64,000 bases of DNA, taken from Candidatus Dormiibacterota bacterium. GTDB lineage: Bacteria > Chloroflexota > Dormibacteria > Dormibacterales > Dormibacteraceae. Under the pieces are notes generated by a model, which saw only the letters and a list, made by a program, of their open reading frames with translations, did not search any database and was not told the DNA's origin. The stretch covers positions 124,001 through 188,000 of the forward strand of contig PLJM01000006.1 in NCBI GenBank assembly GCA_003139695.1, written 5' to 3'. Below are positions 49,128 through 63,426 of the stretch, one piece after another. The position numbers were made by a program, and so were the translations under genes. How positions within the stretch are numbered: the first letter of the stretch is position 1; every line of letters starts with the position of its first letter.

Positions 49128-50015
49128 TTATGAGATGGTCGCCTCTCGCGCGATCCAATCCAGCACCTTCATATTCGCCACCGAATCGCTGACCGGCAGC
49201 GCCACCGGCTGCCCCCCCAGCACGCTCGCCGCAAACGACTCCACCATCAGCTGGTATGGGTTCGGCTGCATGCTGCTGAACGGCCTTTCCAACCGCTCCC
49301 GCCCACCCTTCGTCACCACCGTCAACTCCTGCTCCTCCGGCCCCTCAAAGCTCGCCCACACCGAGGCAGTGGTCCCACCCGCAAAACGCAAAAGGGCACC
49401 AACTGTCAAATCAACGCCGTCCGGCCCATCGGACCGCCGCGCCGACGCCGCCACCGCCACCGGCTCCCCCAGGATCCACCGCGCGACGCTGACCGTGTAG
49501 CACCCCACATCGAGCAGCGCCCCACCACCGAGCTTTCTCCTCAATCGAAAGTTAGCCGGATCCTGGAGCGTGAACCCAAACGTCGCATTCACGTACATCG
49601 CGTCGCGCAGCCCGGCGACAAAATCGCGAGGCCGCGGGTGGAACCGGTACATGAATGCCTCCATGAGCAGCACGCCTGCCCTCTCAGCCCCCGCCCCCAT
49701 CTCCTCCGCCTCCGCGGCATTCATCCCAAGCGGCTTCTCGCACAACACATGCTTGCCGGCGGCGGCGGCGCGCAGCGCCCACTCCTTATGCGCACTGTGG
49801 TGCAGCGGAATGTAGACAGCGTCGACATCGGGCTCCTGCAGCAGCGCCTCGTAGGTGGGACTGACCACAGGCACCGAGTGTCGCGAGGCAATAGCGCGCG
49901 CCCGCTCAGGATCGCGACTCGCAACCGCCACCAGCCGCCCATTGCTCGATGCTCTGATGGCGGGCATCACGTCGCTGTCTGCAATCCCCGCAGCGCCCAG
50001 CACGCCCCAGCCCAA
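49128..50015 (-). CDS. Gfo/Idh/MocA family oxidoreductase
   Basis: NAD(P)-dependent sugar or inositol dehydrogenase-like protein, 295 aa. The Rossmann start is GWGVLGAAGIADSDVMPAI, and the family EKP motif is HVLCEKPLGMN. The C-terminal substrate sheet includes GGGALLDVGCYTVSVARWIL. At 295 aa it is shorter than the usual 320-350. It probably starts at TTG 50015, since no other start keeps the nucleotide loop. It follows the fused ThuA-Gfo gene by 14 bases, suggesting both act on one sugar pathway. Confidence 0.87.
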   Translation of the reverse strand: MGWGVLGAAGIADSDVMPAIRASSNGRLVAVASRDPERARAIASRHSVPVVSPTYEALLQEPDVDAVYIPLHHSAHKEWALRAAAAGKHVLCEKPLGMNAAEAEEMGAGAERAGVLLMEAFMYRFHPRPRDFVAGLRDAMYVNATFGFTLQDPANFRLRRKLGGGALLDVGCYTVSVARWILGEPVAVAASARRSDGPDGVDLTVGALLRFAGGTTASVWASFEGPEEQELTVVTKGGRERLERPFSSMQPNPYQLMVESFAASVLGGQPVALPVSDSVANMKVLDWIAREATIS

Positions 50016-50029
50016 GCGCCGCGGCGGGG

Positions 50030-51718
50030 CTATATGTCGACCTCGACCTGCCGGCCACCTCGCGCGATCGAGTGCGAGGCCGCCTCCATCACGGCCACCG
50101 TGCGCCTCGCCTCATCGGGCGGCACCGCCAGCGGCTCCTCCCACGCGAGATGGTCGGCAAGGTTGCGGTAGAACGCGTTCTCATCGCGACGCGCGAGCAC
50201 CAGCACCTCTTCGTGCGAGCTACCGTCATCAGCGGGCCGCATCACCTTGAGCCGGGCCGGCGACTCAGCGGGCGCCAGCCGCTCCTCGACCAGGTCGCCG
50301 CTGGGGCCTCGCGAGGTCACCGTCTCCTCGCGCCATTCCCCGACAACCGCCCCGCGCGTGCCGAGCAGATACCACTTCGGCTTCATCGCCGCGGCGATGT
50401 CGGACTGGAGGAACGTGGCCTGCGCCCCACCTTCGAACGTGAGGTCGACGCGCACCTGGTCAGAGTTCGTCACGTCGTGCCATACCCTCTTGTGCCCGAC
50501 CGCCGAAACCGTCTTGACCGCTTCAGGAAAAAGCTGCAGCACCCAGTCGAAGTAGTGGGACCCCCAGTCGTAGATGGTCCCGCCCGACACCGGTTCATGG
50601 CTGTGCCAGAAATCACACGGGTGCGAGTAACCGCCGATGAACGACTCCATGTAAAACAGGTCGCCTATCCGACCCGATCGCACGACGTCCCGCATCGCAA
50701 CGTAGTCCGGGTCCCATCGCCGGCTCTGATAAACGGTGAGCACGCGATCTCGCGACACGGCTGAGTCGATCATCCAATCGACCTCCTGCACACGCAGCGC
50801 GAATGGTTTCTCACAGACCACATGCTTGCCCGCGGCCAGGGCGGCGAGCACAGTGTCGGCGTGCGCGCTTGGCGGAGTGCCGACGATTACGAGCTCAACG
50901 TCTGAATCGTCGAATAGCTCCTCCGCGCTCGAGTGCGTGGGCACCTGCCACTCACGGGCCGCCAGCTCGCGGCGCTCGGACGACAAGTCGCAGATCCCGC
51001 GGAGGCGAAGTCCCGACGTGGCGCTGATGGCAGTCGCGTGCGCGGCAGCGATGGCGCCATAGCCGATCAGCCCCACTCCCACCGGCGCTGCCGCTTCCTT
51101 GCCCGCGGCGAACAACAGGACGCGGTGCAGCAGCTTCTGGAAAGAAGCGTCCTCATATGTCGACGCCTGATGCCCGAGACCGATATGCACGAAGCGCCCG
51201 GAGCCGACCACTCGCTCGTAAGCGACCACCTGCTCGGTGAAATGCCAGCTGGTGCGCAGCATCACCGACGCATCCGACGGCGGCCCTTCGGACAGGTACA
51301 GCTCATCCGTGAATTTCATCTCCGGTCCCAGACGCTGCGTCAACGTATGCGAAGGATCCGCGCGCACCACGAGCTCGGTCACCGGCGCGGGCCCGGTCGG
51401 CGCCCACCCGGCGAGCTCGCCCATTTCGCCGCTCTCAACCCACTTCGCAAGCGTGCCGTGAAGCACTACGACGCCGCCACCGCGGCGGACGAATTCGGTG
51501 AGTAGTTCCGCCTGTCCGGATTGAAGATGGTGATCGCTCGCGACCAAAAGCACCTGCCGCCCCTCGAGCGCGAGGTGGTCGGGCTCCGTCGCCACGTCGA
51601 TGCTGAAGTGCAGGGTGCCCTCTAGCGAGCGCAACAGCGGCCGGGCCATCGTCAGGTAGTCGTGGGTGCCACCCGCCAGCAACGCCAGCACTGACACACG
51701 GCTACGTGAAGCGGACAC
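50030..51718 (-). CDS. ThuA-like domain fused to Gfo/Idh/MocA oxidoreductase
   Basis: A 562-aa two-domain protein. Residues 1-205 form a ThuA-like (trehalose utilisation, class I amidotransferase-like) domain: LALLAGGTHDYLTMARPLL, EFVRRGGGVVVLHGTLAKW, FVHIGLGHQASTYED. Residues 215-562 are a complete Gfo/Idh/MocA oxidoreductase: VGVGLIGYGAIAAAHATAIS, HVVCEKPFALRVQEVDWM, GGTIYDWGSHYFDWVLQLF. In most genomes these are separate neighbouring genes. The GTG start sits directly after the stop of the glycosyltransferase gene. Uncharacterised sugar catabolism is the likely role. Confidence 0.88.
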   Translation of the reverse strand: MSASRSRVSVLALLAGGTHDYLTMARPLLRSLEGTLHFSIDVATEPDHLALEGRQVLLVASDHHLQSGQAELLTEFVRRGGGVVVLHGTLAKWVESGEMGELAGWAPTGPAPVTELVVRADPSHTLTQRLGPEMKFTDELYLSEGPPSDASVMLRTSWHFTEQVVAYERVVGSGRFVHIGLGHQASTYEDASFQKLLHRVLLFAAGKEAAAPVGVGLIGYGAIAAAHATAISATSGLRLRGICDLSSERRELAAREWQVPTHSSAEELFDDSDVELVIVGTPPSAHADTVLAALAAGKHVVCEKPFALRVQEVDWMIDSAVSRDRVLTVYQSRRWDPDYVAMRDVVRSGRIGDLFYMESFIGGYSHPCDFWHSHEPVSGGTIYDWGSHYFDWVLQLFPEAVKTVSAVGHKRVWHDVTNSDQVRVDLTFEGGAQATFLQSDIAAAMKPKWYLLGTRGAVVGEWREETVTSRGPSGDLVEERLAPAESPARLKVMRPADDGSSHEEVLVLARRDENAFYRNLADHLAWEEPLAVPPDEARRTVAVMEAASHSIARGGRQVEVDI

Positions 51719-53131: not shown

Positions 53132-54769
53132 TCAGCTCTCCACTGAACGGATCGCGAAGACGCAGTCGAAGGTGCCCGTTACGCACCCGCACTCGACCTC
53201 TTCCACGTACCAATCGTTGGCGAGGCCGGCCCACCGCAGGATCGTCTCGATGCTCGCGGTCCATACGACGCAGGACTTGACCGCCTTGATCCGACCCAGG
53301 GCGAACATGTTGGAGAAGTTCACGAGCCAGAACTGATGCGCATCAACCTGCAGCCACGCGTGTGTGTGCTCGCCGCGCACCTGGTCCATCGCCTCGGTGA
53401 ACGACTTGACGACGCCCGCCAGCTTGCGCTGCCTGCCCGGCACCAACCTCCGCGCCCCACCCATGCCATGTCTCCCGTCAGCGAGCCACCGCTCAGTCGC
53501 GCGCCGCCCCCACGCGCGAATCGCGTCCTCGGCCTCGTGCCCGTAGACGCGCTCGAACGCCTCGTTGAGGCTGCTCAAGTATTCGACGGGCGTAGCGAGC
53601 TGCTCGTCGTGCGGCGGGTCCTCCTCCAGGTACTGTGCCAGTCCGGCCGAGTACGCGATCTCCGGCCACCTGTCTGCGGTGATGTCGCGCGCAACGTGGA
53701 TCAGGTTGGCTACGTGCGAGTTGAGGATGAACCGGCCCCGGGCGCGCGACGGCTTGACGCCCATCATCTCGAGAGTCCTCAGCGCCGACGCCGCACCCGA
53801 TCCGGAGCCAGTGCTGGGCGAGGCAGGAGGGGGCGACCCATGCACCGCGGGGGGCGCCGACACGATCCGCATCGCAGCCGTCTCAGCCGGCTGCGCAGCC
53901 GCCGGGCGTGCGAATGGCACGGGCGCGGCTGCTGCAGGAGCCTGGCGTCGCTGCGGCAGCTTCGCCATCTGCGCCAGCAGATCCTTCACCGTCTGCGGTC
54001 GCTGCGCCGGGTCTTTGGCGAGCACCTTGGCCAGCAGCACGTCGAGCTCGTCGGGGAGGGCGTTGTTCAGCTTCGCCGCGGATGGAACCGGCGCATTGAC
54101 CGTCGCGTAAGCGACCTCCATCCGATTGGAGCCTATGAAGGGCAGGCGGCCTGTCAGCATCTCAAAGGTCAGGACGCCCATCGCGTAGATGTCACAGCGG
54201 CGGTCGACCTCGTGCCCCATCACCTGCTCGGGTGCCATATAGCCGGGAGTGCCGATGGCGAGCCCGATGGTGGTCAGGTGGGTCGGCTGACCGGCGCCGC
54301 GGGCCAGGCCGAAGTCGGCGAGCATGGCGCGGCCGTCGGAGTGGATGAGCACGTTGGTGGGCTTGAGGTCGCGGTGAACGATCCCCGCATCGTGGGCGTG
54401 CTGTAGACCGTCCCCGATCTCACGCAGGTAGCGCCAAGCGGTGAGGGTGTCGAGCGGGCCGCGGTTGAGGATGTCGCGAAGTGTGCCGCCGCGGATCAGC
54501 GGCATGGTCAGGAAGGTCACCCCTTCGGTGACCTCGAAGTCGTAGATCGGCAGGATGTTCGGGTGGTCGAGCTTGGCGAGCGTCTTCGCCTCGGTCTCGA
54601 ACCTCTTGACGAAACCCTCGTCCTGGAACAGCTCGGGCGACAGGGCTTTGAGCGCCACCTCGCGACCGAGGGGCTGCTGCACCGCTCGATAGACGACAGC
54701 CATGCCGCCGCCACCAAGACGCTCGACGATCTCGTACTGACCGACCCGTGTGCCTGTGAGGTCTTTCAT
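53132..54769 (-). CDS. Ser/Thr protein kinase with V4R-like C-terminal domain
   Basis: Hanks-type kinase of 545 aa. The kinase domain (8-265) has the glycine loop RLGGGGMAVVYRA, Lys41 in EVALKAL, HRDLKPTNVLI (Asp134) and ADFGLARG (Asp152). A Pro/Ala-rich linker (270-330) follows. There is no membrane helix or PASTA repeat. The C-terminal ~200 residues (from EMMGVKPSRARGRFILNSHV) end in EEVECGCVTGTFDCVFAI. The cysteine spacing and ending recall V4R/4-vinyl-reductase-like ligand-binding domains, but this is a tentative match. The start overlaps the receiver gene stop as ATGA, linking His-Asp signalling to Ser/Thr phosphorylation. Confidence 0.88.
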   Translation of the reverse strand: MKDLTGTRVGQYEIVERLGGGGMAVVYRAVQQPLGREVALKALSPELFQDEGFVKRFETEAKTLAKLDHPNILPIYDFEVTEGVTFLTMPLIRGGTLRDILNRGPLDTLTAWRYLREIGDGLQHAHDAGIVHRDLKPTNVLIHSDGRAMLADFGLARGAGQPTHLTTIGLAIGTPGYMAPEQVMGHEVDRRCDIYAMGVLTFEMLTGRLPFIGSNRMEVAYATVNAPVPSAAKLNNALPDELDVLLAKVLAKDPAQRPQTVKDLLAQMAKLPQRRQAPAAAAPVPFARPAAAQPAETAAMRIVSAPPAVHGSPPPASPSTGSGSGAASALRTLEMMGVKPSRARGRFILNSHVANLIHVARDITADRWPEIAYSAGLAQYLEEDPPHDEQLATPVEYLSSLNEAFERVYGHEAEDAIRAWGRRATERWLADGRHGMGGARRLVPGRQRKLAGVVKSFTEAMDQVRGEHTHAWLQVDAHQFWLVNFSNMFALGRIKAVKSCVVWTASIETILRWAGLANDWYVEEVECGCVTGTFDCVFAIRSVES

Positions 54770-55161
54770 TTGGGAGCCGTCAGCTTCGCGACGATGGCAA
54801 CCAGGTCCGAGAGCCGGAAAGGCTTGCTCAGGATGTCGTCGGCTCCCGCGGCGAGGAAACGTTCCCGATCGCTCGACATCGAATGGGCGCTGGCGATCAC
54901 GATCGGCTGGTTCGGGATCTGGGCCTTGATGCGCTTCATCGCCTCGATGCCGTCGATACCCGGCATCGCCACGTCCATGAGGATCATGGCCGGGCGCTGG
55001 CTCATCGCGACTTCCACCGCCTGCAGGCCATCGACCGCGATCAGCACGTTGTAGCCTGCCTTTTCGAGCACGCGCCGGCAGAGACGCTGGGCGACGTCGT
55101 TGTCATCAGCCACGAGCACGGTGATCAGCCCTTTGGCGCCCGGTACGGCGCGATCATGCAT
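54766..55161 (-). CDS. stand-alone response regulator receiver
   Basis: A 131-aa CheY-like receiver without an output domain. Acidic pair in VLVADDNDVAQR, phosphoacceptor Asp63 in MILMDVAMPGIDG, conserved Ser/Thr region IVIASAHS, and Lys113 in LSKPFRL. A longer frame upstream lies inside the histidine kinase gene and is not family sequence; ATG 55161 overlaps that gene's end by 8 bases. It sits between the histidine kinase and the Ser/Thr kinase, so it most likely relays between them. Confidence 0.93.
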   Translation of the reverse strand: MHDRAVPGAKGLITVLVADDNDVAQRLCRRVLEKAGYNVLIAVDGLQAVEVAMSQRPAMILMDVAMPGIDGIEAMKRIKAQIPNQPIVIASAHSMSSDRERFLAAGADDILSKPFRLSDLVAIVAKLTAPK

Positions 55162-57562
55162 GTCTGCGTTGCAGTGGCGTGACGTTCTCCGCCGCCAACG
55201 GGAGAGTGAAATGAAATGCCGACCCGTGCCCGACCGCGCTCTCAACCCAGATCTTTCCCCCATGCATCTCCACGATCTGCTTAACGATCGTGAGGCCCAA
55301 GCCAGTCCCAGGTATTGATTGCGCGGCTCCGCTCCGCACCCGGCGGAAGCGTTCGAAGACGTGGCTGATCTCGTCGGGGGGTATGCCGACACCAGTGTCG
55401 GTGACGCTGACCAGGGCGAATCCTTCTTCGGCCCGACTGGAGAGCGTGACCGTCCCGCCGTCCGGCGAGTACTTGACCGCGTTGTTGACGAGGTTGCTTA
55501 CCACCTGGACCAGCCGGTCGCGGTCGCCGACAACGATCGGCAGTCGCGGGTCCAGGTCAGCCTTGAACTCGACCGAGGGTGACGAGCCGGCACGGGCGAT
55601 CGAGTCGCTCAGTACCTCGTTGATGTCCACGTCCGCTGTCCTGATGCTCATCCGCCCGGACTCCATGCGGTCGAGGTCGAGTAGGTCTCCGATCAGACGG
55701 TTGACCCGGTCCGCATCATTGAATATGTAGCCGCCGTAGGCGCGCACCTCGTCCGGCTCGAGGCCGCCGTCGCGAATCAGCTCGCTGAACCCCTGGATTC
55801 CCGTCAGCGCTGTCCGGAACTCGTGGCTGACAATCGAGAGGAACTCGGTCTTGGTGCGGTCCAGCTTCTCGAGCGTCGCGTTCGCGCTGCGCTGGGATTC
55901 GAGCGCCTCGCCCAGCTTGTCCTGCGCCTCCCTCACGACTGTCACGTCCTCGACCATGACGAGGACGTGCTCCGGCCTGCCGCTGGCATCGGGGATCGAC
56001 GTCGCGCTGAGCTGAAGCCACAGCCAGTTGCCGCCTCCGGTGCCGGCCCGGACCTGGACGCTCTTGCCTTCGCTGATGCCCGCAAGCAGAGGCGAAAATC
56101 GCGCCCGGGCCGCGGCCTGGTCGTAGGCCCGAAGGAGGTCGGGCCAGGCGTGCGACCGCATGACCTGGAAGTCGTGCTCGAGCATCGTGAGGAGGGCAGT
56201 GTTCGCCTCGAGCAGCTCGCCCTCGCTGCTGATGCGCGCGATCCCGATCGGAGACCGCTCGAAGATGGCGCGATGGTCGGCCTCGCTGCGGCGAAGAGCC
56301 TGGGCGGTTTCGGCGCGGCGGATGAAGTTGCCGATCTCGCCACCGGCCGTCGACAGCATGGTCACGAGGTCGTTCTCGATCATGCGCGGCTGGTGCGTGA
56401 GCATCTCGACAACGCCGATCACCGAGCCTCCCGTGATTACCGGGAAGGCGACCGCCGATCGCAAGCCGGCCTGCAGCGCTACCGCTACGCGGTCGTAGTC
56501 GGTCGCGACCGACATGTCTTCCTGCGCTGCCGGGATGCCGGATTGCCACACCCGACCCAGCAACCCCTCGCCGGAGGCGATCGACAGGCGCCGACTCTGG
56601 TTGTGGAACTCTTCGAATGCGGCGCCGTCCCGATGCCAGGCCTGCCGCAGGCGCAGGGCCTGCAAGTCGGTGTCGACGGCCCAATACTGCGCCAGGTCCC
56701 AGTCGAGATGCGCGCAAAGGGCGCCGAGCAGCTGGGGCGCCGCCTGTTCCCAGGTCGTCGCGCTCACGATCGTGTGTCGCACGGCGACCAAGCCGTCGCG
56801 CAAACCCTCGACACGCTTGCGGGTGGAGACATCGGTCTCCTGGACAAGGAGCACGCGCTCGCCCCCGGGATGATCGCTGACCGCGGCGATGGTGATCTCG
56901 ACCGGGACGCGGCCGCCGTCACCACGGACCTGGTGGAGCTCCGCCTCCCACCGGAGGATGTCGCCGCTCCGGAGCATCGAAAGGGCTTCTGAGATCGCGC
57001 CCTGGTCGTGCTCCGAGGTGACATCGACGACCGTCAGGTGCAGAAGCTCGGCGCGGCTGCGACCGAGAATCACGCACAGTCGCTCGTTGACGAGGAGCCA
57101 GCCACCGTCGGCGCCGACCAGGGCAAGGCCTACCTGCGCGGCCTCGACCGTGATGCGAAGCCGCTCCTCGCGACCCTGGAGCTCCATCGCCATCCGCTCG
57201 GCGCCGACGGCCTCGGCGCGGATGCGGCCGACCACCTCGTGCACGGCGATCGCGACGACGAGCAGGACGGCGGCCAGGAGAAGAGGGACGGCCAGGTCAT
57301 CCGACGTGCCGCCGAGCATCGCCGGCGCTGAGACGCCGATGGCGGCGAGCACGGCACAGAAGAGCGAGTCGATCCGGCTCGAGTAGAAGGCGGTCAGCAG
57401 GACGATCAGAAGGTAAAGAGGGAAAACGAGCACTGGAGGCAGACCGAGCCCGGTCTGGAGGGCGATCACCACGGCGATGGCGAGAATGGGCGTGGCGCGA
57501 CGGACCAAGCCTCGGGTCCGATTCGGCTTCAATTCGGGCCTCGGACGAGGTCCTGGCAACAC
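55154..57562 (-). CDS. membrane PAS-GAF-PAS sensor histidine kinase
   Basis: Membrane sensor kinase of 802 aa. Order: several N-terminal membrane segments (about 20-130), a PAS domain (about 155-285), a GAF domain (about 300-445, LLGRVWQSGIPAAQEDMSV), a second PAS (about 455-580), HisKA with His near residue 580 (LSIVSHEFRTALTGIQGFSE), and HATPase with NAVKYSPDGGTV and GTGLGLTIVKQIVEMHGG. The frame is open further upstream, but that part runs through a dispersed repeat. GTG 57562 has GAGGG seven bases upstream and opens just before the membrane region. It is the first gene of the HK-receiver-Ser/Thr kinase operon. Confidence 0.92.
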   Translation of the reverse strand: MLPGPRPRPELKPNRTRGLVRRATPILAIAVVIALQTGLGLPPVLVFPLYLLIVLLTAFYSSRIDSLFCAVLAAIGVSAPAMLGGTSDDLAVPLLLAAVLLVVAIAVHEVVGRIRAEAVGAERMAMELQGREERLRITVEAAQVGLALVGADGGWLLVNERLCVILGRSRAELLHLTVVDVTSEHDQGAISEALSMLRSGDILRWEAELHQVRGDGGRVPVEITIAAVSDHPGGERVLLVQETDVSTRKRVEGLRDGLVAVRHTIVSATTWEQAAPQLLGALCAHLDWDLAQYWAVDTDLQALRLRQAWHRDGAAFEEFHNQSRRLSIASGEGLLGRVWQSGIPAAQEDMSVATDYDRVAVALQAGLRSAVAFPVITGGSVIGVVEMLTHQPRMIENDLVTMLSTAGGEIGNFIRRAETAQALRRSEADHRAIFERSPIGIARISSEGELLEANTALLTMLEHDFQVMRSHAWPDLLRAYDQAAARARFSPLLAGISEGKSVQVRAGTGGGNWLWLQLSATSIPDASGRPEHVLVMVEDVTVVREAQDKLGEALESQRSANATLEKLDRTKTEFLSIVSHEFRTALTGIQGFSELIRDGGLEPDEVRAYGGYIFNDADRVNRLIGDLLDLDRMESGRMSIRTADVDINEVLSDSIARAGSSPSVEFKADLDPRLPIVVGDRDRLVQVVSNLVNNAVKYSPDGGTVTLSSRAEEGFALVSVTDTGVGIPPDEISHVFERFRRVRSGAAQSIPGTGLGLTIVKQIVEMHGGKIWVESAVGHGSAFHFTLPLAAENVTPLQRRHA

Positions 57563-57798: not shown

Positions 57799-60150
57799 AT
57801 GAACACCCCACTGCAATCTGAAGGGCTCAGCCGGCGCGTCTATCCCTTTATCGGGCTGGCCATCGTCGGGCTCGTCAGCCTGCACGGCTACTCCGAGCTC
57901 ACCACATCGCCCGCTTTGGTCGCGGCGATGGTGGTCGGCATGCTGCTCGCGCTGGCGCCGCTCGCCCCGGTCAGCTTTCCTGCAGTCCCTCAGCCGCTGG
58001 CCGCAATCCCGGTGGTGCTCGGTCTCGGGCTTGCCCTCTATCCCCTGTGGAAGATGGGAACCGTCTTCGGCATCCTCGCGTCGGTGGTGCTGGTCGCGCT
58101 CGCCGGAGCGCTCGTGCTGCTGCCTTGGGAGCGCATCCCCCGATTCCTGCACGGGATCTCCCCCATCGGTGGCCTCGCCGTCACCTTCGCGCTGGAGGTG
58201 CAGTTCGGGCTGAGCGTGATTCGCGCCTTCCCGTTCGTGCTGCTGCTCCTCATGTTCCTCGCGCTGTACTACACGACCGTCGAGTTCGCAATCGGCGCAG
58301 CGCTCGGCGCGGCGGACCTCATCCTCGTCACCGGAGTGAACCCGCAGACCGGCGACCCGGCGGCGGCATTGCTCGAAGGCCTGCTCCTTGTCTCCCTGGG
58401 AATCCTCGTGCGACGTGTCGGCCAGGAACAGGAGGCGCACCGCACCGCTGCAGCCGCCGCGGAGTCGGCGCGGTCGGAGCTGCTGGCCGACCTCGCCCAG
58501 CGCAACCAGGAGCTGCAGGAGCTGACGCGCATGAAATCCGAGTTCCTGGCCACGATGAGCCACGAGATCCGCACGCCAATGAACGGCGTCATCGGCATGA
58601 CAGGGCTCCTCATGGAGACCGAACTCACCCCTGAGCAGCGGGACTATGTGGAGACGGTGCGCGCCTCCGGCGACACACTGCTGGAGATCATCAACGATAT
58701 CCTCGATTTCTCGAAGATCGAGGCGGGTCGCGTGCGCATGGAACGCATCGACTTCAGCCCCAAGCATGTGACCGAAGAGGCCGTCGAGCTGTTCGCCGAG
58801 CCCGCCGCGAACAAGGGCATCGAGCTCGTCCTCGACGTCGAACCCGACGTCCCGCACAACGCGATCGGCGATCCCGGCCGCTTGAGGCAGGTGCTCATCA
58901 ACCTGGTCGGCAACGCGATCAAGTTCACCGAGACGGGCGAGGTCGTGGTGCGAGTGCGTCGCAAAGAGTCAGCAGGTCCGGGAGTGCAGCTGCATTTCGA
59001 GATTGCGGACACCGGGATCGGGCTCAGCGAGGAAGAGCAGGCTCGCGTCTTCTCCACCTATTCGCAAGTCGACAGCTCGACCACTCGCAAACACGGCGGC
59101 ACCGGCTTGGGGCTCGCCACCTCTCGGATGCTCGTCCAGTTGATGGGCGGCGAGCTGGGAGTCGAGAGCGAGACGGCCGCCGGCAGCCGTTTCTGGTTCA
59201 CCGCCCTGTTTCGAGAGGGCGAGCGCAAGGCGCCCGTGGTTCCGCCCACTGCGAGTCTCAGCGGGACCGCGATCGCCGTGGTCGACGACAACCGCACGAA
59301 CCGGACGATCCTCGAGCGCTACCTGGGCTCGTGGGGCATGCGCGATAAAGCGTTCGAGTCTGGACGCCAGGCGCTGGAAGAGCTGCGCGCAGCGGCGCGC
59401 GGCGAGGATCCGTTCGAGGTCGCGATCGTCGACATGATGATGCCGGGCATGGACGGCGCCGCAGTCGCCGCGGAGATCCGCTCCGATCCCGCATTAAAGG
59501 ATATGGTCGTCATCCTCCTCACCTCTGCCGGCCACTCCGAGCATCCGGTGCCGGGAATCGACGTTGAGCTTGTGAAGCCAGTACGCCCGTCGCTGCTCTT
59601 CGACGTTCTCCACTCATTGCTTGCGGCGAAGCCGGAGCATGCCAACCGCCGTGTGATGGACGAAAGCACGCCGACCGACCAGGCCTCGCATCGTTGGGCG
59701 CGGCTGCTCGTGGTCGAGGACAACGTCGCCAATCTCAAGGTCGCGGTGCGCATGGTGGAGAAGCTGGGCTACCGCGCCGACGTCGCCAACAATGGAGCTG
59801 AGGCGGTGCGCGTCCTGGGCGATATGCACTACGACGCGGTCTTGATGGACTGTCACATGCCGGAGATGGATGGATTCGACGCCACGCGGGAGATCAGGCG
59901 GAACGAGCCCGAAGGGCGGCACACGCCCGTGATCGCGATGACCGCGAGCGCGCTTTCAGGCGACCGTGAGCGCTGCCTCGCGGCAGGGATGGATGACTAC
60001 ATCTCCAAGCCGATCAAGATGCACGTGGTGGCAGCGGTCCTGGAAAGGTGGTTGGGCCCGAGAGACAAGCAAGCCGGTGGTGAGCCGGCTAAGTCGACCT
60101 CCCCGCTCGCCGGGGAGGTGGCCCGAAGGCCCGGAGGGGACGTCCCTTAA
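57799..60150 (+). CDS. membrane hybrid histidine kinase with two receivers
   Basis: A 783-aa sensor. Six or so membrane helices (10-210) are followed by a coiled coil, HisKA with His255 ([19 protein letters not shown]) and HATPase (350-465; [35 protein letters not shown]). Receiver 1 (about 490-610, Asp545 in [11 protein letters not shown]) and receiver 2 (about 635-760, Asp684 in [22 protein letters not shown]) complete it. No HPt or DNA-binding domain is present. The membrane part itself is the likely sensor. The final ~18 residues ([18 protein letters not shown]) are encoded by a GC-rich repeat. ATG 57799 directly precedes the first helix. Confidence 0.93.
60097..60119. repeat. GC-rich hairpin repeat, copy E, inside hybrid kinase 3' end
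   Basis: ACCTCCCCG (60097-60105) pairs with CGGGGAGGT (60111-60119), 9 bp with loop CTCGC. Bases 60099-60119 are the exact reverse complement of 53083-53103. The repeat provides the C-terminal codons of the kinase. Confidence 0.65.
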
Positions 60151-60163
60151 AGCACCAACGACT

Positions 60164-61300
60164 CTAGGTTCTTCGCAGTGCGAGAACTGTTACGTCGTCC
60201 GGCAGGTCCCGCTCGCCCGAGCCCGCGGCGAGGATGTCCACGATCCCCTGAGTCGTCGGCGCGCGCCGCGCCGCCAGGGGCAGCGGCACATCCTTGGTCG
60301 CGAGGTCTGGGCGCAGGTCGAGCAGTCCGTCGGAGAAAACGACCAGAGTGTCTCCGGGCTCGAGGACGACCTTGCCAGGCACCAGCGTGTTGTCAGGCAG
60401 CAACCCGATCGGCGCCCCACGCTGGGCCAACAGCTCATGACCACCGCCGCTCCGCATCAGCCGCGCGTGCCCGTGCCCGGCATCGATGTAATTCAGCTCG
60501 CCGGTGGCGCCATCAAATATCGAGTGGAACAGCGTGACGTAAGCCTGGTTCACCTCGAGCGCAGCAGCCATCACGCCGGCCGCCTGCTCAACGCCCTGTT
60601 CCACCGACGCCGCATGCCCGGAAGCGGAGCGGAGCGCTGCTCGAACAGTCGCCATCAGGATGGCGGCGGGCAACCCCTTGCCCATCACATCGCCGAGCGT
60701 CACCGCCAGCCGCCCCCCATCGAGCGGGTACCAGTCGTAGAAGTCGCCGCTGATCTCCCGAGCCGGCGCGAAATGAGCGGCGACCTCGAACCCCTCGCCG
60801 GTGAAAGGCGATAGCGGCAGCAACGCCGCCTGCACCTTGGCTGCCCTGTCGATCTGGTCGGTGCGCTCGGCCACCAGCGACTCGAGGCGTTGCAGGTTGG
60901 CCCTGTAGTCGATCTCCATGCTCCGCCGGCGGAATGCATTGACCACCGCGAGGTACAGCTCGGTGGCGCCGACGGGTTTGACGAAGTACGCATAGGCGCC
61001 GTGTTCCACCGCGGCCTTGCCGAGCTCGGGGTCGTCGACTCCCGAGATCATCACGACCGCCGTGTCGGGGTGCTTGGCCTTGAGCTCCCCCAGCAGCCCG
61101 TAGCCCGATTCGTCGGGGAGCTTCACATCGAGGAGTGCCAGCGCGTACTCCTTGCTGTCGATGAGCTCGCGCGCGGCGGCGCCCGAGAACGCGACGTCGG
61201 ACTCGAAGCCGCGGCTTCGCAGGGTGCGCTGCATGACCTTGGCCAATGCCTCTTCGTCGTCGACGATCAAGGTCCTGAGCAAACCGTCAGCGGCGCGCAT
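60164..61300 (-). CDS. receiver-PP2C (RsbU-type) phosphatase
   Basis: A 378-aa protein with an N-terminal receiver (1-125; TLIVDDEEALAKV, Asp58 in LALLDVKLPDESG, Lys108 in YFVKPVG), a short coiled linker (RANLQRLESLVAERTDQIDR) and a SpoIIE/PP2C phosphatase domain. The phosphatase has metal motifs REISGDFYDWYPLDGG, VTLGDVMGKGLPAAI and VVFSDGLLDLRPD. Such proteins dephosphorylate STAS anti-anti-sigma factors in response to a histidine kinase. The STAS gene lies 93 bases away, divergently transcribed. The likely input is one of the nearby kinases (inference). Confidence 0.93.
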   Translation of the reverse strand: MRAADGLLRTLIVDDEEALAKVMQRTLRSRGFESDVAFSGAAARELIDSKEYALALLDVKLPDESGYGLLGELKAKHPDTAVVMISGVDDPELGKAAVEHGAYAYFVKPVGATELYLAVVNAFRRRSMEIDYRANLQRLESLVAERTDQIDRAAKVQAALLPLSPFTGEGFEVAAHFAPAREISGDFYDWYPLDGGRLAVTLGDVMGKGLPAAILMATVRAALRSASGHAASVEQGVEQAAGVMAAALEVNQAYVTLFHSIFDGATGELNYIDAGHGHARLMRSGGGHELLAQRGAPIGLLPDNTLVPGKVVLEPGDTLVVFSDGLLDLRPDLATKDVPLPLAARRAPTTQGIVDILAAGSGERDLPDDVTVLALRRT

Positions 61301-61393: not shown

Positions 61394-61732
61394 ATGAGCC
61401 TCGAGGTCCAGGCGCGGCAAACAGACGCCGGCGTGACCGTGCTCGCCCCCTCCGGACGCCTCGACGTGGCCGGCGCTCCCTCTTTGAAGGACGCGGTTAC
61501 TGAGGCGGTCAAGAACGGCCCGCGCGTCGTCATCGACCTTGAGGGCGTGAGCTTCGTCGACAGCACCGGCCTCGGCTCGGTCATCGCGGCGCTGAAGCTG
61601 GTGCGCAGCTCCAAGGGTGACCTGAGGCTGGCGGCCCCCAATCAGCAGGTGCGGGTGGTCCTCGAGCTGACCACCCTGGACAGGGTGTTCCCCTATTTCG
61701 CCACGGTCGAGGAAGCTCTCACTGACTTCTGA
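61394..61732 (+). CDS. STAS anti-anti-sigma factor (RsbV/SpoIIAA-like)
   Basis: A 112-aa STAS protein. TVLAPSGRLDVAGAPSLKDA leads to the phosphorylation motif DLEGVSFVDSTGLGSVI, with Ser57 as the expected phosphoacceptor. ATG 61394 opens the domain; a longer upstream frame is antisense to the phosphatase gene. Unphosphorylated STAS proteins bind and remove an anti-sigma kinase. The next gene encodes just such an HATPase and overlaps this one by 11 bases. Confidence 0.93.
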   Translation: MSLEVQARQTDAGVTVLAPSGRLDVAGAPSLKDAVTEAVKNGPRVVIDLEGVSFVDSTGLGSVIAALKLVRSSKGDLRLAAPNQQVRVVLELTTLDRVFPYFATVEEALTDF

Positions 61733-62168
61733 CCCCGCCAGCGACGTCAAATCAGACGCCCCGCTCTTCGAGTTCCACGCCACGCTCACCCGGCTCGAAG
61801 ACGGCATCGACACGCTCCACCACTCGGTGGATCTGCTGCGCGAGCGCACCGGCCGCGGCGCCGAGGACCGCAACCTGATCCTGTTCGAGACGGCGCTCGC
61901 CGAGATCGGCTCGAATGTGCTCATCTACACGGGCAAGCACGGCAGCAAAGGACCGCCCGTGGAGTACGAGTTGCGCCTGGAAGCGGGCACCGCAACTGCA
62001 TCTTTTACCGACTGGGGACCTCCCCTTCATAATCAATTGCCTCGCGCCATGCCAGCGCCGACAAGCGAAGCCGGCCGCGGCATCGCGATCGCACGCAAGG
62101 TGCTCGATGAGCTGGGATACAAACGCGATGGCGAGGTGAACTATTGGCGACTGGTGAAACGGCTGTAG
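61722..62168 (+). CDS. RsbW-like HATPase anti-sigma/serine kinase, probable CTG start
   Basis: A 148-aa GHKL ATPase-like protein. N box LAEIGSNVLIYTGKHG, G1 FTDWGPPLH and G2 AGRGIAIARKVLDELGY are all present, as in RsbW/SpoIIAB-type kinases. GTG 61827 would remove the first helix (LFEFHATLTRLEDGIDTLHH), which the fold needs, and has no ribosome site. CTG 61722 has GGAAG six bases upstream and restores this part; no ATG, GTG or TTG is available. No sigma factor gene is in view, so the target could be another protein, perhaps the HisKA protein encoded next. Confidence 0.85.
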   Translation: MTSDPASDVKSDAPLFEFHATLTRLEDGIDTLHHSVDLLRERTGRGAEDRNLILFETALAEIGSNVLIYTGKHGSKGPPVEYELRLEAGTATASFTDWGPPLHNQLPRAMPAPTSEAGRGIAIARKVLDELGYKRDGEVNYWRLVKRL

Positions 62169-62410
62169 GCGCAGGAGGCGAACACTCGGAGGAAGGAAAC
62201 CGGGTCCTCATCCACGACTTTCGCAATCTCCTGGCAGTGATCGTGAACTACTGCGAGCTGATCGCTGAGGAAACAGGCGATCCCGAAGCAGTGCGCACTG
62301 ACATCCAGGAGATTCGCGTCGCTGCCGAGCGCGCGATCGCGCTGACCGACAAGCTGAGGCGCCCGCCAGTACCGGCTCCCGATTCGGAGTCCACGGCGAG
62401 CGGGTTGTGA
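62144..62410 (+). CDS. free-standing HisKA-like phosphoacceptor protein
   Basis: An 88-aa protein with no ATPase domain. Residues 20-72 (VLIHDFRNLLAVIVNYCELI, EIRVAAERAIALTDKLRR) match the HisKA helical hairpin, with His24 in the H-box position. There is no membrane helix. TTG 62144 has GAGGTGA four bases upstream; no other start precedes His24. It overlaps the HATPase gene by 25 bases and the receiver gene by 4 (GTGA). The order HATPase-HisKA-receiver on separate chains is unusual. The HisKA match is by eye, without a profile search. Confidence 0.78.
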   Translation: MATGETAVGAGGEHSEEGNRVLIHDFRNLLAVIVNYCELIAEETGDPEAVRTDIQEIRVAAERAIALTDKLRRPPVPAPDSESTASGL

Positions 62411-63426
62411 CCATGACCCGTAGGCCGGGTGCGGCCAGGACCGCAGCGGGCGGTGACGGCGTGACACCTTATCGCGAGCTCGTGCTGGTGGTCGACGACG
62501 ACGACCAGATGCTGCGCCTGGTCAAGCGCGTGCTCGAACGCGCCGGCTTCGAGTGCGTCACGGTCGGCGACGGCGAGGTCGCACACGAGTCGGCGGTCGA
62601 CTGGCGCCCCGACATCATCCTGCTCGACCTGATGCTCGGGTCGACGACCGGCGACCAGATCTTGGCCGACATCCGAAAGGACTTCCGCACCCGCCTGATC
62701 CCCGTGGTCTTCCTCACTGTTCGCAGTTCGCTGAAGGACAAGGTGGAGCACCTACTCGCGGGCGCCGACGATTACGTGACAAAGCCGTTCATCGCGGAAG
62801 AGCTCGTCGCGCGGTTGAGGGCGGTGATCAGCCGCTCCACGAACACGCGCGACCTCAACCCGCTGACAGGAATGAGCGGCAACACCGACATCCTTCGCGA
62901 GATCAACCAGCGCCTCAAGGCGAACGAGCGCTTCGCAGTCCTGTATCCAGATATCGACACCTTCAAGAGTTACAACGACCACTACGGATTCCTGCGCGGA
63001 GACGACGTGATCAAGACGCTCGGCACGATCATCCTCGAGGTGCTCGAGGCGCACTACTCGCCCCATCACTTCGGTGGCCATGTCGGCGGTGATGACTTTG
63101 TGATCCTCACGGAGCCCAGCCTGGCGGAGACAGTCGCAGCCGAGATCACCAAGCGTTTCGACGAGGCGGTGCCCGACCTTTACGACGAGGTCGACAGGGA
63201 GCGCGGCTGGATCGAGTACGAGGACCGGAGCGGCGCCTCGCTCAGGACGGGCCTGGTCTCGGTGTCCATCGGTATCGTCCTGGCCGAGCCCGGTAGCTAC
63301 GAGAGCGCCGCCGCTCTTGCCTCACGCGCAGCCGAGGTGAAGGGCGTGGCGAAACGAATGCCAGGATCGAGGTGGGTCGTCGACCGCCGGCGCCCGCCAG
63401 AGGCTCGCGGAGGGCGCACCCGTTAA
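62407..63426 (+). CDS. receiver fused to GGDEF-like (GGDDF) domain
   Basis: A 339-aa response regulator. The receiver (25-145) has LVLVVDDDDQMLRL, Asp74 in IILLDLMLGSTTGDQ and DYVTKPF. It is joined to a diguanylate-cyclase-like domain (about 160-325) with VLYPDIDTFKSYNDHYGF and the signature HVGGDDFVIL (GGDDF at 227-231) instead of GGDEF. The acidic variant may still be active, but an extra segment follows (EVDRERGWIEYEDRSG). No RxxD inhibitory site is obvious. The start overlaps the HisKA gene as GTGA; ATG 62413 is an alternative. Confidence 0.9.
   Translation: MTMTRRPGAARTAAGGDGVTPYRELVLVVDDDDQMLRLVKRVLERAGFECVTVGDGEVAHESAVDWRPDIILLDLMLGSTTGDQILADIRKDFRTRLIPVVFLTVRSSLKDKVEHLLAGADDYVTKPFIAEELVARLRAVISRSTNTRDLNPLTGMSGNTDILREINQRLKANERFAVLYPDIDTFKSYNDHYGFLRGDDVIKTLGTIILEVLEAHYSPHHFGGHVGGDDFVILTEPSLAETVAAEITKRFDEAVPDLYDEVDRERGWIEYEDRSGASLRTGLVSVSIGIVLAEPGSYESAAALASRAAEVKGVAKRMPGSRWVVDRRRPPEARGGRTR

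Follow-up and report, generated by a model that had tools for sequence, protein, structure and literature searches.

The window analysed here, a stretch of 64,000 nucleotides from Candidatus Dormiibacterota bacterium (contig PLJM01000006.1 of assembly GCA_003139695.1, positions 124,001 to 188,000) in whose numbering all coordinates are given, carries on its minus strand three genes that encode, in order of transcription, a sensor histidine kinase (HK), a single-domain response regulator (the free receiver) and a Hanks-type Ser/Thr kinase (STK) with a predicted V4R-like C-terminal domain (Table 1). The HK and receiver genes overlap by 8 bp and the receiver and STK genes by 4 bp (ATGA). These overlaps had been reported in an earlier note on this DNA and are borne out by the coordinates, as is the translational coupling of the three genes. 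The same note had described the receiver as devoid of an output domain; indeed, Response_reg was the only domain found in it by the Pfam scan. However, the boundaries 53132-57562 delimit the operon and not the full conserved unit, which runs to about 63426: the operon is one half of a conserved island and faces a second signalling block. Thus, the locus is real, conserved and larger than first noted, and its components are known whereas their combination is new.

The active sites of the three proteins are intact. The HisKA and HATPase_c domains of the HK are intact and conserved in its orthologs (n = 26, at the same position, mostly 55-85% identity); an alternative GTG start at 57811 would enter the divergent gene. 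The 131-aa receiver has the DD pair, the phospho-Asp, the Ser/Thr and the Lys of single-domain response regulators and no output domain. D19, D20, D63, S91 and K113 are invariant in 27 sequences, and the K-3 position is occupied by V or I, i.e., is non-aromatic. The STK possesses the Gly loop, catalytic Lys, HRD, DFG and APE elements that define Hanks-type Ser/Thr kinases, and its motifs VALK (IALK in three orthologs), HRDLKPTN, ADFG and GTPGYMAPE are intact and conserved among orthologs, in which the only other motif variation is a Thr/Ala change next to the alphaC Glu. No part of the island evolves more slowly than the catalytic domain of the STK.

The genome is 94% complete, comprises 3.3 Mb in 34 contigs and contains 43 receiver matches and six Pkinase genes; of these kinases, this STK alone has a receiver no more than a few kb away. 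Adjacency in a single genome is weak evidence when taken alone. A scan of GTDB genomes yielded 26 STK orthologs, aligned over their full or near-full length at 73-92% identity, all in genomes from soil metagenomes that bear the name Dormibacterota or Chloroflexi (regions of relatives are hereafter given L-numbers and their genomes G-numbers). The HK and receiver genes lie directly upstream of the STK gene, in identical order, in all 26 orthologous loci; a start codon that yields the exact 8-bp overlap is present in 24 of them, and the 4-bp overlap (ATGA, GTGA or TTGA) in 21, the remaining five showing gaps of 0-14 bp. Because gene order is kept in every locus and the overlaps in most, the linkage is well beyond chance.

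A phylogenetic profile across 42 genomes of the GTDB family, with identity thresholds of at least 77% for the kinase C-terminal domain and at least 69% for the receiver, points in the same direction. The kinase C-terminal domain, the receiver and the HK co-occur in the same 28 genomes. G407 and G416 hold only an incomplete HK, which in G416 reaches the contig end, and the contig of G404 starts within the HK. All three genes are absent from 11 genomes, two of which (genus g3) hold diverged kinase-V4R proteins. G405, which is 85% complete, is the single gap within the carrier clade. The free separation of the genes in relatives that the earlier note had named as grounds for abandoning its proposal is not seen, the exceptions being mostly cuts at contig ends. 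Moreover, every locus that is assembled across this region retains all three genes, whereas 7 of 16 informative relatives lack the divergent hybrid HK gene that lies between the two halves of the island. This contrast within the locus is stronger evidence than the genome count.

The C-terminal part of the STK (residues 327-545) has no Pfam match, and a phmmer search against the PDB was also empty; at the gathering cut-off of PF02830 (V4R), no match was found in the STK itself or anywhere in the genome. The identity of the domain was reached instead via its homologs and its fold. In 400 genomes of the phylum, homologs of the tail occur as standalone proteins of ~210-240 aa, as the C-termini of proteins of ~366-412 aa, and in diverged kinases. 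The standalone homologs L102 and L106 exceed the Pfam V4R cut-off (1e-10 and 9e-12) and one of them also passes that of MetOD1, whereas L097 stays below the cut-off. An AlphaFold2 model of the tail (predicted TM-score (pTM) 0.72; mean predicted local distance difference test (pLDDT) 70) matches H-NOX structures in Foldseek with E about 1e-5 and target TM-scores of 0.6-0.69, and TRAPPC3 weakly (E 0.012); the profile match of the tail to MJ1460 is likewise weak (E 0.011). As judged from this model and these homologs, the tail is a divergent domain of the V4R/H-NOX/Bet3 fold, a known superfamily (PMC2253512, PMC5847659). C500, E524, C527 and C536 of the tail are invariant in 27 sequences. The spacing of the Cys residues is at most one residue off that of the zinc site of DmpR, with the Glu two residues off the printed DmpR number; the DmpR ligands are printed as Cys151, Glu172, Cys177 and Cys185 (PMC7264223). 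The suggestion of the earlier note that the C-terminus of the STK may bind a ligand is therefore backed to the extent that the modelled fold, together with the V4R matches of its homologs, is of a ligand-binding type. As the heme motif of H-NOX proteins is YxSxR and this pattern is absent from residues 327-545, H-NOX-type heme sensing by the tail was rejected.

The relatives of this domain suggest that such domains may work with receivers, because they are fused to receiver-like domains or adjoin a gene for a receiver (REC)-GGDEF protein. In other families of Chloroflexota (L095-L101 and L107), proteins of ~366-412 aa combine a degenerate receiver-like domain with a V4R-like domain. With a broad receiver profile, hhalign aligned these N-termini to receivers at 85% (score 38, with 15 column shuffles reaching at most 13.8); an earlier hhalign run with close orthologs gave only 43%, hmmsearch of the N-termini against the PDB found no receiver, and in the two fused proteins that were scanned Pfam did not call one. 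In another Chloroflexota genome (L106, 4706-6593), a standalone V4R gene is separated by 12 bp from the REC-GGDEF gene that follows it and by 10 bp from a small preceding gene whose product is Roadblock/LC7-like by eye. Thus, the free receiver may dock on the V4R-like domain and not on the kinase domain. As a separate observation, the tandem genes of L106 bring a Bet3-type domain together, in a single operon, with what may be a Roadblock-type one.

The second half of the island is composed of a divergent hybrid HK gene and five further signalling genes.

Table 1. Genes and domains of the operon and of the facing signalling block (positions in the window)
Feature	Position	Strand	Evidence and remarks
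Sensor HK	55154..57562	-	802 aa, GTG start; hydrophobic N-terminus, PAS-GAF-PAS, HisKA, HATPase_c (Pfam)
Single-domain response regulator (free receiver)	54766..55161	-	131 aa; Response_reg sole Pfam match, E 2.4e-30
STK with V4R-like C-terminal domain	53132..54769	-	545 aa
Hanks kinase domain of STK, residues 12-263	53981..54736	-	Pfam Pkinase, E 1.6e-51, 175.6 bits
Predicted V4R/H-NOX/Bet3-fold C-terminal domain of STK, residues 327-545	53135..53791	-	AlphaFold2 model, Foldseek, Pfam V4R matches of homologs
Divergent hybrid HK, HisKA-HATPase-REC-REC	57799..60150	+	Pfam; present in 9/16 and absent in 7/16 informative relatives
REC-SpoIIE, response regulator with PP2C-type Ser/Thr phosphatase output (REC-PP2C)	60164..61300	-	Pfam SpoIIE 1.5e-35, Response_reg 1.4e-21
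STAS anti-sigma-antagonist-like protein, DSTG motif	61394..61732	+	Pfam STAS 4.5e-22; 77-88% identity across relatives
RsbW-like HATPase_c_2 protein	61827..62168	+	Pfam 2.7e-11; start uncertain, likely farther upstream
Solo HisKA/DHp protein without ATPase domain	62144..62410	+	88 aa; Pfam HisKA 3.2e-6, barely above cut-off
REC-GGDEF response regulator, diguanylate cyclase-like	62407..63426	+	Pfam

The hybrid HK is a dispensable member of the island. In contrast, REC-PP2C, the STAS protein, the RsbW-like ATPase, the solo HisKA protein and REC-GGDEF are each present in 15/15 relatives with long enough regions, and REC-PP2C was found in 31 genomes, namely the 28 carriers of the operon and the three truncated cases. 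The solo HisKA protein, which fell below the size limit of the open reading frame listing used, keeps the motif H-[DE]-[FL]-RN-[LM]-[LI]AVI in 15/15 relatives and is a possible phosphotransfer protein; its gene overlaps that of REC-GGDEF by 4 bp. The parts of an RsbU/V/W-type partner switch (PP2C phosphatase, STAS antagonist and HATPase_c_2 kinase) are present in one locus; no sigma factor is annotated within the island, a statement that does not extend to the genome, for which no such search was made. The island thereby combines a Ser/Thr kinase beside a free receiver with a Ser/Thr phosphatase that carries a receiver of its own. Elsewhere in the window, a ThuA-like domain is fused to a GFO/IDH/MocA oxidoreductase (50030-51718), followed by a second GFO/IDH/MocA gene (49128-50015).

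On the basis of this organization, the following mechanism may be proposed. A signal would cause the HK to autophosphorylate and to pass its phosphate to the co-translated single-domain receiver, a step that is nearly certain given the class of the two proteins and their common operon. The receiver, which has no output domain, would then act by protein contact, with the co-translated STK as its main effector. Control of the STK by the receiver is the simplest reading, because a receiver without output is co-translated with a kinase, and it is the best single one; we put it at slightly less than an even chance, perhaps with the V4R-like domain as intermediary. More speculatively, the receiver might reach the STK through or together with this domain, which would also let in a small-molecule or metal input. 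The STK would be opposed by the neighbouring receiver-controlled PP2C phosphatase, with the level of Ser/Thr phosphorylation governed from both sides by His-Asp signalling; the STAS protein is a speculative candidate for the substrate of both enzymes. The retention of the 8-bp and 4-bp overlaps, the near all-or-none co-presence of the genes, the contrast with the dispensable hybrid HK, the co-occurrence of REC-PP2C, the receiver links of the V4R relatives, the slow evolution of the kinase domain and the intact active sites all argue for this reading, which we hold, taken as a whole, only tentatively and as a little less probable than its opposite. Its most specific form, in which the free receiver gates the Hanks kinase directly via the V4R/H-NOX-fold domain and is opposed by a receiver-gated PP2C, such that a Ser/Thr writer and eraser would both be under two-component signalling, is rather doubtful. 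Nonetheless, the locus suggests that two normally separate phosphorylation languages have been wired together, and the direct His-Asp to Ser/Thr relay envisaged in the earlier note is plausible.

Several observations weigh against control of the STK by the free receiver. An RpoB tree of the sampled genomes groups all carriers in one clade (100/100 support); therefore, the 28/28 genome count overstates the evidence, and the co-presence probably reflects about one gain followed by strict retention rather than 28 independent confirmations. Background synteny is strong here, since the flanking downstream glycosyltransferase gene is syntenic as well. Partial distance correlations among the proteins of the island are small and do not discriminate between the readings. 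Among the V4R relatives, the fused receivers mostly lack the phosphoacceptor Asp. Furthermore, the kinase-V4R architecture does not need a receiver, because genus g3, the sister genus, keeps it without any HK or receiver ortholog in either of its genomes (G036 and G410). Each of these genomes encodes two kinase-V4R proteins (L093:3576-5192, L094:753-2237, L129:7428-9119 and L130:4270-5790), which are likely pseudokinases, with HRD replaced by CRV, YRV or YRL and DFG by EFG. Finally, at least four other proteins of the island are possible partners of the free receiver: the hybrid HK with its two receivers, REC-PP2C, REC-GGDEF and the solo HisKA protein could each exchange phosphate or contacts with it.

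This last point underlies the main rival explanation, according to which the free receiver would serve as a shuttle, a branch point or a sink for phosphate (similar to Spo0F or DivK) among the HK, the hybrid HK, the solo HisKA protein, REC-PP2C and REC-GGDEF, whereas the STK would answer to a V4R ligand of its own and be co-expressed solely on account of shared substrates. The solo HisKA protein and further receivers are constant companions of the operon (15/15 relatives), the two-receiver hybrid HK is present in 9/16, and the V4R fold could plausibly provide a separate input. However, the translational coupling of the free receiver is to the STK and not to the other receivers, and relatives may lack the hybrid HK but not the free receiver. 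We therefore regard such a shuttle as possible, but unlikely. It is also conceivable that control runs in reverse, with the STK tuning the two-component system through Ser/Thr phosphorylation of the receiver or the HK. This direction is documented for many bacterial STKs, e.g., for PrkC-WalR, Stk1-VraR, PknB-RegX3 and others (PMC12189002, PMC6213207), but most of the targets on record are HKs or DNA-binding response regulators, and an output-less receiver would still need a further effector, which makes reverse control improbable here. Least probable of all is the absence of any direct molecular link, i.e., an island acquired once whose gene order is slow to break, as the single carrier clade and the syntenic glycosyltransferase might imply: many relatives lack the mid-island hybrid HK but keep the three genes with their overlaps, and in most of the relatives the overlap of start and stop codons is the same to the base.

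If the free receiver does control the STK, V4R/H-NOX-fold domains would gain a role in the control of protein kinases. In the reviews consulted, most of the crosstalk described is directed from Ser/Thr kinases towards two-component systems, and direct control of a Hanks kinase by a receiver in bacteria was not found in our literature search, which missed most subscription papers. A lone receiver that is permanently coupled to an STK and faces a receiver-gated phosphatase opens this opposite direction, in which a bacterial receiver would switch a Hanks kinase in the manner of yeast Ssk1, to direct tests with a few purified proteins.

Among known systems, the yeast Sln1-Ypd1-Ssk1 pathway to Ssk2 resembles the proposed control of the STK in its way of working: the Ssk1 receiver controls Ssk2, a Ser/Thr mitogen-activated protein kinase kinase kinase, by contact with the regulatory part of the kinase (PMC8510515). 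The likeness is one of analogy, as the yeast system is eukaryotic, uses a separate histidine phosphotransfer (HPt) protein and is active with unphosphorylated Ssk1, whereas contact is a proposal in the present case and no homology is claimed between the autoinhibitory part of Ssk2 and the V4R-like domain. The STK shares its catalytic domain with PknB and PrkC, and its best NCBIfam model is that of the PASTA kinases. It was nonetheless rejected as a member of this PknB/PrkC equivalog (NF033483), since it scores 306 bits against a cut-off of 450, matches on the kinase part only and has no PASTA repeats. No description of a V4R-fold domain on an STK was found in the literature searched. By its modelled fold the tail belongs with the V4R domains of DmpR/MopR and MJ1460 and with the H-NOX/Bet3 superfamily, and its C/E/C/C set resembles the DmpR pattern; unlike in DmpR, it is fused to an STK and not to an AAA+ activator, and its Glu-Cys spacing is 3, compared with 5 in the printed DmpR numbers. 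Closer to the receiver association are the REC-MetOD1 response regulators of methanogens, in which an H-NOX/V4R-like domain is linked to a receiver (PMC5847659) and whose MetOD1 model is also matched by a V4R homolog found here; these proteins are, however, archaeal, represent direct fusions and contain no Ser/Thr kinase. As to the island as a whole, REC-PP2C, the STAS protein and the RsbW-like ATPase are common to partner-switch systems (RsbU/RsbV/RsbW, SypE-SypA of Vibrio fischeri (PMC10120452) and PA3346-PA3347 of Pseudomonas). Unlike these systems, the island permanently adds a Hanks STK with its own HK-receiver pair, together with REC-GGDEF and the solo HisKA protein.

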